Notes under the pieces: generated by a model
Databases searched by the model: none
Seen by the model: only the letters and a program-made list of their open reading frames with translations
Told to the model about the DNA's origin: nothing
Part shown: piece after piece, positions 57,141 through 62,218 of the stretch
Position numbering within the stretch: position 1 is the first letter of the stretch
Layout: the number at the start of each line of letters is the position of its first letter
Assembly (NCBI GenBank): GCA_018266875.1
Contig: JAFDZR010000014.1
Coordinates: forward strand, 1-64,000
DNA: 64,000 nucleotides
Source of the DNA: Bacteroidota bacterium
Lineage (GTDB): Bacteria > Bacteroidota > Ignavibacteria > Tepidaquicellales > Tepidaquicellaceae
Reading direction: 5' to 3'
Translations under genes and position numbers: made by a program

Positions 57141-58094
57141 TCAGTCTTTGAAGAATCCCATGTCTCCGAATTTCTTGATCCTGTTATCAAGGAATTTATC
57201 TTTTTTGATCTTGGAGACGGTATCGAGTTCTTCCAGCAGAACTTTCTTCAGCATTTCAGCGGCCTGAGCATGATCCCTGTGAGCTCCGCCTTCAGGTTCG
57301 TCAACGATCCTGTCAATGATCTTCAGGTCGAGCATGTCTTTTGCTGTAAGCTTAAGTGATTCCGCCGCCTGTTCCTTATAATCCCAGCTTCTCCATAATA
57401 TCGAAGAGCAGGATTCGGGAGAGATCACTGAATACCAGCAGTACTTCAGCATTATAACTCTGTCCCCTATTCCGATTCCAAGAGCCCCGCCTGAAGCGCC
57501 TTCTCCGATTATTGCTACTATTATCGGCACCTTCAGTCCTGACATTTCAAAAAGATTTCTTGCAATCGCTTCGGCCTGTCCTCTTTCTTCAGCTTCAATT
57601 CCCGGAAATGCCCCGGGTGTGTCTATTAATGTAATTACCGGTTTGTCATATTTCTCTGCCAGTTTCATTAATCTCAGCGCTTTTCTGTAACCTTCGGGAT
57701 TCGGCATTCCGAAATTTCTGTAAATATTTGATTTAGTATCTCTTCCCTTCTGCTGTCCGATTATCATTACTGTTCTGTCATCCAGACTTGCAAATCCTCC
57801 GACGATTGCCTTATCATCACCGAAATGTCTGTCACCGTGCAGTTCAACAAAATTCTCCGTCATTAAATAAATGTAATCAAGCGCATATGGTCTTTCCGGA
57901 TGTCTCGCAAGCTGTACAATCTGCCAGGGAGTAAGATTTTCAAAAATTTCCTTTCTGAGCTGGTTTATTCTTTCCTCAAGCTTGCTGATCTCATGCGAAA
58001 TGTCCAGATGGTCGGACATTCTCCTCATCTCCCTGATCTTGTTTTCAAGCGTAATGATCGGTTTTTCTATTTCAAGATAATTCTGTACTGCCAT
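57141..58094 (-). CDS. accA: Acetyl-CoA carboxylase carboxyltransferase subunit alpha
   Basis: A 317-residue subunit for the first step of fatty-acid synthesis. It has '[19 protein letters not shown]', '[40 protein letters not shown]', '[37 protein letters not shown]', '[23 protein letters not shown]' and '[21 protein letters not shown]'. Full length. The start is one base after the glycosyltransferase-fusion stop, so it is probably cotranscribed with the envelope sugar genes. accD is not in the window. Confidence 0.97.
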
Positions 58095-58095
58095 T

Positions 58096-60051
58096 TTATT
58101 TTTTTTTGAAAATTAAAAAGAAAGTTTTTAATAAAATCTCCGTATCAAGCACAAGCGACTGATTCTTTGCGTAAAATAAATTCATATTCACTATCTCTTC
58201 ATCAGTTATACCTTCATAGGAATTAAGCTGCACAAGCCCTGTCAGTCCCCTCTTTCCTATGAACTGTCTGTCATCAGTCTCGAGCCACACAGGATAACCT
58301 ACAAAACTCGTATTACCTTTGAATACATCAGGAAGAAGCAGCAGCTTTGAGACCTGTTTCGAAGGTTTAAAATTAAAGATCTTTATCATTAATAACATAA
58401 CCGGATAAACCGTTATGAGCAGAATGAAAGACAACACAAGATCAAAAATTCTTTTTAAAAATATATTTAATTTATTATTAATATTATATTCAATTTCTAT
58501 TAAGTTTATCTCATCAATGCTGCTGGTATTTAATTTTGAAAGCATCAGTTCCTTTCCGGATGGAAATATACGGAATCTCACATTCCTGCTGCGCATATCC
58601 CACATTAGATTCAGCATGTCCTCATTTGAAAACAGATTGCCGGAGAATACAACTTCGTCTATCTTGTTAATCGTTATTATTTCCTCAAGCTCTGAAATAT
58701 TGCTCTTTTTTGAGATGTCGGAATAATGAAGTATATTGTATTTGGAGTTGAGCTTGTCTTCTACATTCTGATTGAGCTTATCAGCTCCTACCAGCAGAAG
58801 ATTGACCTTATTAAGAAGTATGTTCTTTGAGATAATGAAAAGATAAAGTTTGTAACCGCCCCGGAATAAAAGCAGGAAAATTATTGACAATACCGTGGAG
58901 GCAAGTATAACTCCTCTTGAGAAAGCATATTCCTTGAAGAAATAAGTTATTGATGAATTGATAAAAAATCCTACAATTACCGCATTAAAGGTATTTCTGA
59001 GTGAGAAGAAATGCTTTTTCGAATATGAACCGAATACAACAAGAGTCAGCAGCCATACAAACACATATACTGAAATGATGAACAAGTAATCTTTATTCGG
59101 GAATATGTCAAACCGGAATTTAACTGAAATAATAAGTGACAGATATAGAAGCAGAATATCCGCAATGGGAAAAATAAAAGTCCTGAAAATTCTCTGCATA
59201 TATGACATTAACTGTCTCCAGTAAATACCGGCCTGCAGCAGCGGGGAAAGGAATCTGGAAAATCCCGTGAAATTTTTTCTTACGAATATTATCATCGCTC
59301 CGTAAAAATTATTCACGTATGACAAATTCGTTTTTCTGGTGCTTTCACCTTTGAAATGGATCGTTGTTACTTCCGGGTAATAGAATATTTTAAAACCGTT
59401 TTTCTTTATCCTGTAACAGAGATCAATGTCTTCTCCGTACATAAAATAGTCCTCATCAAAGAGTCCCGCCTTGTCAAGCACATGTCCGGGTATGAACATA
59501 AAAGCCCCGCAAATTGCATCCACTTCCCAGGTTTTGTTTTCGTCGAGATAAGTAAGATTATATTTCCCGAATACCCTGCTTTCCGGAAATAAAGAAGACA
59601 GTCCGAGTATGCGCGGGATTGCAACCGAAGGGGTTGGAAAACTTCTCTTGCAAGCGGAATCAAGTTTTCCGTTTCCAAGTATCAGCTTTGAAGTTACGGC
59701 TCCGGCATCCTTATTTTCCTCACAGAATTTTATGAGTTTGTTGAAAGTGTTTTCCTCAAGCAGCGTATCGGGATTGAGTATAAGAATGTATTTCCCGTTT
59801 GCCTGCCTTAATGCTATATTATTTGCTTTTGAGAAACCAATATTCCGGGAGTTGCGGATTACTTTTACCTCAGGATAAACCTCTGCAATGTGATCAGAGC
59901 TTCCGTCTATCGAGTTGTTGTCAACGAAAAAAATTTCGAGACTGTGCTCATTGTTGTTCGCTTTGTAAATTGAGGCAATGCAGTTATCGACCAGTTCCTT
60001 TACATTATAATTAACGATCACTACCGAAATGTCAACACTGGAACCGTTCAT
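58096..60051 (-). CDS. GT2 glycosyltransferase fused to a degenerate polyprenyl glycosylphosphotransferase
   Basis: A 651-residue membrane protein. Residues 1-255 are a complete rhamnosyltransferase-like GT2: '[16 protein letters not shown]', 'NPDTLLEEN', and '[34 protein letters not shown]'. Residues 285-420 have four membrane helices, then a CoA-binding-like cytoplasmic domain, then the remains of a WbaP-type transferase: the membrane hairpin '[23 protein letters not shown]' and the tail 'GNTSFVGYP ... [16 protein letters not shown]'. About 55 residues holding the catalytic Asp-Glu dyad and the YKFRSM block are missing, as shown by the intact paralogue encoded at 60833-62218. The second half should therefore not transfer phosphosugars; it may act as an anchor or dimerisation partner. 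Confidence 0.85.
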
Positions 60052-60106: not shown

Positions 60107-60829
60107 TCATAATTTCCCGAAGATGGATTTGAATTTTAATTTCCAGACCATGAAATATGCTTCATACACTACCTTGCGGGACATTTTGGATTCGCCTTCC
60201 CTTCTGTCTATGAATAATATAGGAACCTCCACAATCTTGAAGCCTTTTTTATACATTTTAAACTTCATCTCTATCTGAAAGGAATATCCGTTAGATCTCA
60301 CTTCATCCAGATTTATCTGCTTAAGCGCGGAAACCCTGTAACACATGAATCCAGCAGTTGTATCCATAACTTTTAATCCTGTAACGGCTCTCGTATAAAC
60401 CGATGCAAGATAACTGAGAATAAGTCTTCTCAAAGGCCAGTTCAGGACAGAAATCCCGTCAATGTATCTTGAGCCGATCACCAGATCAAAACCACTGTCA
60501 ATTTTTTCTATAAATCCTTTAAGATATTTCGGATCGTGAGAAAAATCCGCATCCATTTCAAAAACACAGTCGTAGTTTTCCTTAATAGCATATCTGAATC
60601 CGGCTACGTAAGCCGTGCCGAGTCCTGATTTTTTATCTCTCTTAAGTATGTGAACATGATCGTGATTCAGGTCTTGAACAAGCTTTGCCGTTCCGTCCGG
60701 TGAATTGTCATCCACAACGAGAATACTGAATTCATTTTCTGGATCAGAATTTTTCAGAATCAGCGGGATTATTTTTAAAATATTATCCGCTTCATTGTAT
60801 GTCGGAATTATAACAAGTATTCTTTTCAC
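60107..60829 (-). CDS. Polyprenol monophosphomannose synthase-like GT2
   Basis: A 240-residue soluble GT2 of the DPM1/Ppm1 branch, which charges polyprenyl phosphate with a hexose from a nucleotide sugar. It has 'ILVIIPTYNEADNILKIIPLIL', 'ILVVDDNSPDGTAKLVQDL', 'CVFEMDADFSHDPKYLKGFIEKI' (metal-binding DAD), 'VIGSRYIDG' and 'SYSFQIEMKFKMYKKGFKIVEVPILFIDRREGESKMSR'. No C-terminal membrane helices, so it is the catalytic domain only. It lies between the two phosphotransferase-type genes, with only 3 bases to the upstream one. Confidence 0.9.
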   Translation of the reverse strand: MKRILVIIPTYNEADNILKIIPLILKNSDPENEFSILVVDDNSPDGTAKLVQDLNHDHVHILKRDKKSGLGTAYVAGFRYAIKENYDCVFEMDADFSHDPKYLKGFIEKIDSGFDLVIGSRYIDGISVLNWPLRRLILSYLASVYTRAVTGLKVMDTTAGFMCYRVSALKQINLDEVRSNGYSFQIEMKFKMYKKGFKIVEVPILFIDRREGESKMSRKVVYEAYFMVWKLKFKSIFGKL

Positions 60830-60832
60830 CTG

Positions 60833-62218
60833 TCAGTGACCTTTCATTAAAAGTATTACGATTATGGTATTTATCATGATCTTGAAATCAAGTTTAAGGC
60901 TCATGTTTTCTATATAATAAAAATCAAACTGAAGCTTTGACTTCACATCGTCAACGGATGTATCATATTTATGTTTTATCTGAGCCCATCCGGTAATTCC
61001 CGGTTTCACGGATAATCTTTTATAATAATAAGGTATTTCTTTCTTTAACTGCTCCACAAAAAAAGGTCTCTCAGGTCTCGGACCTATGAGACTCATTTCA
61101 TTTTTCAGTACATTGAACATCTGCGGGATCTCGTCTATGTAAAGTCTTCGGATGAATTTCCCCGTTCCGGTGATTCTCGGATCATTCTCCCCCGCCCATT
61201 CAGGACCGTATTCTTCGGCATTGACTACCATTGACCTGAATTTATACATAATGAAAATCTCTCCCTTCTTTCCAACTCTTTCCTGCTTGTATAATACCGG
61301 TCCCTTTGAAGTGATCTTTATGATAAGGGATATAAGCAGAAGAAAAGGTGACAATATCATCAGAGTCACAGCGGAAATGAATACATCAATAAGTCTTTTA
61401 GTCAGCAGTCCGGCAGGCGACATGATATCCGGCATCACTTCTATAAGCGGTACGCCGTAGATCTGATTTGTCTTTGCCATTCCGCTTACTATCTCATACA
61501 TGTCAGGAAGTATCTTCATGTTAACTTTTTCTTCGCTGCAGTATCTTATCACGTCGATCAGTCTTTCCTTTTCATTGGGTTCAAGCGCAATCAGAATTTC
61601 CGAAATATCTTTCTCCCTGATCAGATTCCTTATTTCAGACAGACTTCCAATACCGGTTCCCGTATCGCCTTTGTTTTTTCCGTTAATGCTGACAAATCCC
61701 TTAAAGCTGTAACCAAGCTGCGGATATTTCTTGATCATGGCTTCGAGTTCAGAAGCCTTTTCCCCGCTTCCGACGATCAATGAATGTCTCAAGCCGATTC
61801 CCTTTTCCAGCAGGTTCCGCTGAATGCTCCTGATAATTATTCTGCCTGTGCTGACGCAGATCACCGTAAGCAGCCAGTATATGAGAATAAGAAATCTCGA
61901 AATTATCGGAGCGTTATTCATCATGTCATCCAGAAATATTAGAAAGAACAGAATAAAACAGCCGAATGATACTGTTTTAAATACTGATGAAAATTCATCA
62001 AACCTGGACCTGACAAACCAGTGCTGATATAATCCGGCAAAGGAAAATATTACAAGCCAGTATAAGTATATAGCAGTGAGCGGTCCCAGGAATGCGGGCG
62101 GATTTGCATATATTATCCATCCCGAATCCACTCTTATGTAATAATAAATCGTCCATGCCAGAGTTATAAAAATAAGATCCGACAGAAATAAAAATATTTT
62201 TTCCTTCCTTTTGGACAA
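60833..62218 (-). CDS. Polyprenyl glycosylphosphotransferase (WbaP/WcaJ-type)
   Basis: A 461-residue membrane enzyme that moves a sugar-1-phosphate onto undecaprenyl phosphate to start surface glycan assembly. Four N-terminal helices (about 8-125), a CoA-binding-like domain near 140-260 ('LIVGSGEKASELEAMIKKYPQLGY'), the re-entrant helix 'KRLIDVFISAVTLMILSPFLL', then the catalytic core 'YKQERVGKKGEIFIMYKFRSMVVNAEEYGP', 'YIDEIPQMFNVLKNEMSLIGPRPERP' and 'VKPGITGWAQIKHKYD'. The Asp-Glu catalytic pair is present. It is the functional counterpart of the degenerate copy encoded at 58096-60051. Confidence 0.95.
   Translation of the reverse strand: MSKRKEKIFLFLSDLIFITLAWTIYYYIRVDSGWIIYANPPAFLGPLTAIYLYWLVIFSFAGLYQHWFVRSRFDEFSSVFKTVSFGCFILFFLIFLDDMMNNAPIISRFLILIYWLLTVICVSTGRIIIRSIQRNLLEKGIGLRHSLIVGSGEKASELEAMIKKYPQLGYSFKGFVSINGKNKGDTGTGIGSLSEIRNLIREKDISEILIALEPNEKERLIDVIRYCSEEKVNMKILPDMYEIVSGMAKTNQIYGVPLIEVMPDIMSPAGLLTKRLIDVFISAVTLMILSPFLLLISLIIKITSKGPVLYKQERVGKKGEIFIMYKFRSMVVNAEEYGPEWAGENDPRITGTGKFIRRLYIDEIPQMFNVLKNEMSLIGPRPERPFFVEQLKKEIPYYYKRLSVKPGITGWAQIKHKYDTSVDDVKSKLQFDFYYIENMSLKLDFKIMINTIIVILLMKGH

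Follow-up and report, generated by a model that had tools for sequence, protein, structure and literature searches.

The protein encoded at 58096–60051 of the window (the whole stretch of DNA analysed here, 64,000 nucleotides) is, as judged from its sequence, a GT2 glycosyltransferase carried on a WbaP-type large monotopic phosphoglycosyl transferase (Lg-PGT) that has been stripped of its catalytic block. Across the fusions of this kind the predicted scaffold is kept and the predicted chemistry is lost, and comparison among relatives supports a dead state that is old and conserved. With a probability of roughly 0.5, the degenerate half is a membrane/polyprenyl docking platform from which the GT2 receives an Und-PP-sugar as acceptor for the second sugar. 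The features on which the analysis is based are as follows.

57141..58094, minus strand: accA (PF03255, 493 bits); it starts one base past the fusion stop codon
58096..60051, minus strand: GT2::pseudo-Lg-PGT fusion gene, 651 aa (Pfam and single-row full-length matches in relatives)
58099..58350, minus strand: retained PGT-core end with S.VG, GxTG.xQ and YxxN.S...D, residues 568–651 (motifs, PglC match)
58351..58374, minus strand: junction without catalytic block, residues 560–567 (alignments; insertion of WbaP 8t53 here)
58375..58473, minus strand: re-entrant membrane helix with KRxxD and P550, residues 527–559 (column conservation)
58474..58545, minus strand: stretch matching the WbaP hairpin region, residues 503–526 (alignment to WbaP 8t53)
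58546..58815, minus strand: Rossmann-like DUF (PF13727-like), residues 413–502 (Pfam)
58816..59241, minus strand: linker and predicted membrane helix bundle, residues 271–412 (helices of the structure model)
59242..60051, minus strand: GT2 domain, residues 1–270 (Pfam, conserved acids, fold match)
60107..60829, minus strand: DPM1-like GT2 gene, 240 aa (PF00535; "DPM1-like" is our own label)
60833..62218, minus strand: intact Lg-PGT of WbaP/WcaJ type, 461 aa (PF02397, 228.5 bits; PF13727, 69.7 bits)

Architecture of the fusion protein

Profile, fold and conserved acids all identify the N-terminal half as a GT2. Both PF00535 and PF13641 score above their cut-offs on it (Pfam match over residues 8–239), and its fold matches range from Z 20 to Z 24, including 6p61 (Z 23.9), WrtF 9omm (Z 23.4) and RmlT 8bz6 (Z 22.1). 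Residues D44, D49, N93-P94-D95, E207-D208 and H232 are invariant among 74 sequences, and the GT2 half is therefore probably catalytically active.

Because the full-length model retrieved GT2 structures, a separate model of the C-terminal half was made and used as query. A profile of this half aligns with almost all of WbaP 8t53 (E 7e-37, residues 69–522), in which the catalytic block forms an extra stretch of about 65 residues at the junction. The structural match to 8t53 extends over 235 residues (Z 13.8) at an rmsd of 17.1, which means that the domain positions differ between the model and WbaP. Foldseek gives low TM-scores (0.30 by query length for 8t53, rmsd 18); thus the domains match those of 8t53 and their arrangement does not. 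Against PglC 8e37 the model gives Z 11.9, with an rmsd of 3.0 over 124 residues.

In the monomer model, helices are predicted at residues 263–314, 320–339, 351–371 and 379–411. PF13727 reaches 22.8 bits on the 651-aa protein, below its cut-off of 25, and lies above the cut-off in two relatives, L159 (45.2 bits) and L183 (42.2 bits). The stretch 503–526 shows small length differences from the corresponding part of 8t53 in the profile alignment, and residues 503–512 have a pLDDT below 50. The re-entrant helix of Lg-PGTs, with its basic start and proline, is present: K533, R534, D537 and P550 are conserved in 95, 92, 95 and 91%, respectively, of 91 fusion rows. PF02397 covers only profile positions 94 to 178 of 179, whereas in the intact protein at 60833–62218, which also matches WbaP 8t53 (E 9e-40), it covers positions 1–178.

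Loss of the catalytic centre

The distance from K533 of the re-entrant helix to S582 of the S.VG motif is 49 residues in the fusion protein, compared with 102 residues (K274 to S376) in the intact neighbour, so that the fusion is 53 residues short; the YKFRSM motif falls inside the absent stretch. A second shortfall, of 14 residues, lies between the S.VG motif and Y627. The columns of the Asp-Glu dyad lie just past the missing stretch and are occupied by S568-K569, and PRP is also substituted. Over 182 partly overlapping alignment rows, the span from K533 to S582 varies from 32 to 76 residues with a median of 49; gap lengths derived from regular expressions (median 114 for fusions) were discarded, and all spans quoted here are taken from the alignment. 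By eye, a longer remnant of the core is seen in KSB1/Calditrichota records and in some members of the phylum set (for example, L193–L196), which would fit a less advanced degeneration in these.

For motif counts, 197 fusion open reading frames were reduced to 169 distinct ones, 161 of which encode at least 600 aa. A KFRSM-like motif, the dyad in the form DE[LIFVWM]P[QR], and GPRP were each found in none of these 161, and PRP occurs at another place in four of them. Among 89 stand-alone Lg-PGTs from the same loci, the three motifs are present in 85, 86 and 86 proteins, respectively. A phosphotransferase half that is catalytically dead is thereby well supported by motif content; with the nucleophile and the nucleotide-sugar motifs gone, it should not form the covalent sugar-phosphate intermediate.

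The first-pass annotation had described a phosphotransferase without its catalytic centre, and the motif counts bear this out. Its statement that the C-terminal half keeps the membrane helices, the re-entrant hairpin and the ends of the WbaP core agrees with the alignment to WbaP 8t53 and with the conserved columns; its estimate of about 55 lost residues including YKFRSM is close to the 53 counted, and the intact paralogue that it placed two genes upstream is found at 60833–62218, with the DPM1-like gene (60107–60829) between. It was right that the dyad is lost, and wrong in placing the dyad inside the deletion, since these columns follow the gap and are substituted rather than strictly deleted.

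The conservation alignment comprised 90 Lg-PGT rows and 91 fusion rows (90 sampled from the 161 fusions, plus the 651-aa protein). Sixty-three columns are conserved in at least 90% of the Lg-PGT rows; in the fusions, 20 of these still have the Lg-PGT residue in 50% or more of the rows, another 20 are missing, and substitutions account for the remainder. Retention is seen in the re-entrant helix (KR..D and P), in S.VG (its S and G), in GxTG, and at Q, Y, N, S, D and I positions. At the dyad columns, DE occurs in 87 of the 90 PGT rows, and no pair prevails among the fusions. A charge swap was also observed in the C-terminal helix, where an acid/base pair in 78/90 Lg-PGT rows (E437/K446 in the 60833–62218 protein) corresponds to base/acid in 67/91 fusion rows (K629/E638 in the 58096–60051 protein); a salt bridge with exchanged sides or a contact specific to one partner protein might explain it.

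Gene neighbourhood

A frequent order in the cluster is intact Lg-PGT, DPM1-like GT2, fusion and accA. Counting only loci with enough flanking sequence, accA directly follows the fusion at 72 of 73 named loci, the DPM1-like gene directly precedes it at 58 of 66, and 42 of 53 have an intact Lg-PGT no more than 6 kb upstream; the named and class sets share genomes. Overall, accA was found at 141 of 167 loci and starts within 60 bases of the fusion stop in 126 of the 167. It sometimes overlaps the fusion stop, a fatty-acid gene being tied in this way to a glycan gene. In the distant phylum set the corresponding counts are 16/39 for accA, 2/34 for the DPM1-like gene and 0/4 for the PGT, so that the order seen at the 58096–60051 locus is weaker there; several distant members have the same genes nearby in another order. 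Although the order changes, the genes remain clustered at many loci.

An intact PF02397 protein is present in all of 30 hand-picked fusion genomes. It lies about 5 kb or less from the fusion in 20 of them, and none stands beside the fusion in the other 10; in five (G058, G067, G124, G258 and G353) the sole intact PGT is the neighbour of the fusion. The KSB1/Calditrichota clusters L159, L168 and L169 contain no intact PGT within about 9 kb, and accA and the DPM1-like gene are the steadier neighbours there. Beyond the window, the cluster encodes members of the Poly_export/SLBB, GNVR, GHMP kinase, nucleotidyl transferase, SIS and epimerase families. These export and sugar-nucleotide families indicate that an envelope polysaccharide destined for export is the probable product.

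Distribution, selection and origin

In whole-protein searches, 46 of 59 related genomes gave a single-row full-length match to the fusion; in eight the match was incomplete or divided, owing to contig ends, frame breaks or a weak C-terminal end, and five gave none. In a KSB1/Calditrichota-type phylum-level group around a Caldithrix-record genome, 53 of 59 genomes gave a full-length single-row match. The C-terminal half matches 189 of 197 class genomes, a count that includes weaker matches to ordinary PGTs, and it has no match in the plasmids searched. Named loci belong to Ignavibacteria, Kryptonia, Chlorobi-type, KSB1 and Calditrichota records; among the carriers is a cultured relative, Stygiobacter electus (L183). 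The occurrence of a fusion with a dead partner in several large bacterial groups suggests that it has a real job.

Some loci deviate from the usual form. At L099 (G004), L100 (G005) and L112, the GT2 and pseudo-PGT halves are in two overlapping frames, through either a true split or a frame break in the assembly, and at L194 (G294) the fusion lies within a 1492-aa open frame to which an extra domain may be attached. The proteins encoded by L262:1548-4046 (833 aa) and L263:1092-3671 (860 aa) begin with a PGT-like part in which the dyad position looks changed; by eye, their C-terminal part resembles a membrane sugar-nucleotide dehydratase, and they are possibly another pseudo-PGT fusion. Long PF02397 frames in G334, G383 and G072 were rejected as fusions because no GT2 part was seen by eye, and they look like 5'-extended PGTs.

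All four gene parts show pN/pS values of 0.07–0.35 in four pairwise comparisons, indicating purifying selection, and the PGT-core end has the highest or second-highest value of the four parts in all four. We quote pN/pS because synonymous sites were saturated and dN/dS was often undefined.

Catalytically complete GT2-Lg-PGT fusions also exist in the KSB1 group (L254:2692-7369, L255:2638-4896, L256:3548-5806 and L257:2999-5437). PF02397 extends over positions 1–178 in L254 (at 2692), L255 and L257, and L256 is complete by motif; the four are absent from the set of 161 because its open reading frames were picked by match to a pseudo-fusion profile. In a tree of the membrane-plus-DUF region, parts that diverge strongly, a branch with support 98/96 separates the 31 pseudo fusions from the remaining sequences, and the complete fusions cluster with intact PGTs, so that the complete fusions are apparently the result of an independent fusion event. 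The tree sampled 30 of 84 stand-alone PGTs, its root is arbitrary and the boundaries of the compared region came from a pseudo-fusion profile; an older common fusion ancestral to both kinds is therefore possible. Beside the complete fusion of L254 there is a tandem second copy in which Glu-Lys replaces Asp-Glu; this may represent another, more recent instance of the degenerative trend.

The first-pass annotation had called for the same fusion with the same deletion in other genomes, and the combination recurs in the 46/59 and 53/59 genomes given above, with the motifs in 0/161 fusions. Relatives with a full catalytic core, which it had regarded as a sign of a recent local deletion, were indeed found in L254–L257, but they belong to a separate lineage. 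Sequencing error or a local deletion was rejected, as loss of the catalytic block is common to families and phyla. Recent loss from a complete GT2-Lg-PGT fusion was likewise rejected, since the tree places the complete fusions among intact PGTs and unites the pseudo fusions in a single clade.

Possible role of the degenerate half

In the docking arrangement, an intact Lg-PGT (here probably the 60833–62218 protein) would make the Und-PP-sugar, the pseudo-PGT half would keep the GT2 on the cytoplasmic side of the membrane and present the Und-PP-sugar to it, and the GT2 would add the second sugar of an envelope polysaccharide. The architecture, the missing catalytic block and its conservation throughout the family, the purifying selection and the gene cluster are observed, whereas GT2 activity, the acceptor, the docking role and any physical contact with the intact PGT are inferred. 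The first-pass annotation had suggested a dead phosphotransferase that serves as anchor or regulatory partner and brings the GT2 to the newly made undecaprenyl-linked sugar. This is borne out in part: the half is without a catalytic centre, the state is old and conserved, and an intact Lg-PGT often accompanies the gene; the anchoring or regulatory function is a candidate role. The retained scaffold columns, the profile match to WbaP, the purifying selection and the intact PGT in 30/30 genomes are consistent with docking; the 10/30 genomes and the KSB1/Calditrichota clusters with no intact PGT beside the fusion, the PF13727 score below cut-off and the high pN/pS of the core end speak against it.

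The boldest version of the docking arrangement is a heteromer, in which the pseudo-PGT pairs with the adjoining intact Lg-PGT by exchange of DUF hairpins and either controls the PGT or channels its product to the GT2; we put this forward tentatively. According to the WbaP study (PMC10942596), swapped DUF hairpins hold the two subunits of the WbaP dimer together, and the hairpin is poorly placed in the monomer. The stretch of the fusion from hairpin to helix is almost of WbaP length, and its residues 503–512, of low pLDDT in the monomer model, behave like the poorly placed hairpin described there. EpsZ, an Lg-PGT of Myxococcus xanthus, is activated through contact with its protein partner EpsW, as reported in PMC12802240. 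The length of this stretch, the poorly placed residues and the two precedents are the reasons why docking is favoured. The intact PGT co-occurs in 30/30 genomes and adjoins the fusion in 20/30, and co-occurrence alone is weak support for pairing because Lg-PGTs are common; the absence of an adjacent PGT in 10/30 genomes and the strong divergence of the DUF and membrane parts argue against it.

A plainer possibility, which we consider nearly as likely as the heteromer, is that the dead half only tethers the GT2 to the membrane, perhaps as a homodimer, with no contact to polyprenyl or PGT. Membrane helices and a re-entrant helix that persist while the catalytic residues vary freely would suit such an anchor, but G585, G602, T604-G605, Y627, N630 and D636 are kept across many families, which is unexpected for a bare tether. 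It is improbable that the DUF is a sensor whose binding of UMP, or of another nucleotide, adjusts the GT2 or the PGT: PMC10942596 does propose that the WbaP DUF acts allosterically on UMP binding, but PF13727 is below cut-off in the 651-aa protein. Equally unlikely is a new chemistry, by which the C-terminal half would have another active site or offer Und-P to the GT2 for synthesis of Und-P-sugar, for, despite the steady DPM1-like GT2 neighbour and the invariance of K533, D537, Y627 and D636 in 74 sequences, these four residues are conserved in ordinary Lg-PGTs too and therefore look structural.

Taken at its widest, the docking arrangement would describe an old FCB-group family of pseudo-PGTs, in which a GT2 on a dead Lg-PGT is paired with an intact Lg-PGT within an accA-linked cluster, a proposal that is conceivable rather than probable. 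If it is true, glycan initiation and the first extension would take place in one membrane complex. To our knowledge, it is an open question by what route the product of the membrane enzymes initiating surface glycans passes to the enzyme that follows; a starter-enzyme scaffold without the chemistry separates docking from catalysis, and the hand-off becomes testable. No description of a pseudo-PGT was found in the literature searched; the superfamily network study was outside its scope, and an earlier mention is possible. The main network paper on the PGT superfamily reportedly appeared in PNAS in 2021.

Comparison with known systems

The GT2 rhamnosyl/fucosyltransferases RmlT and WrtF resemble the N-terminal half in both fold and catalytic residues, and WbbL is presumably comparable; we know of no PGT-like half in any of these three. 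The Lg-PGTs WbaP and WcaJ (PDB 8t53 and 9s7s) share with the fusion the membrane bundle, the re-entrant helix and the end of the core, and their DUF corresponds to a PF13727-like region that scores below the cut-off in the 651-aa protein. Compared with them, the fusion has gained an N-terminal GT2, lost the catalytic block and substituted the dyad and PRP. In bifunctional monoPGTs (Bi-PGTs), as described in PMC10942596, a functional domain is joined to an active PGT core, as a GT2 is joined here, but the core of the fusion is without its catalytic block and predicted to be dead, and the closest complete GT2-Lg-PGT fusions found (L254–L257) belong to another branch. The EpsZ-EpsW pair of Myxococcus xanthus (PMC12802240) is likewise a case of an Lg-PGT governed by contact with a partner; EpsW is a response regulator, whereas the partner proposed in the present system would be a pseudo-PGT.
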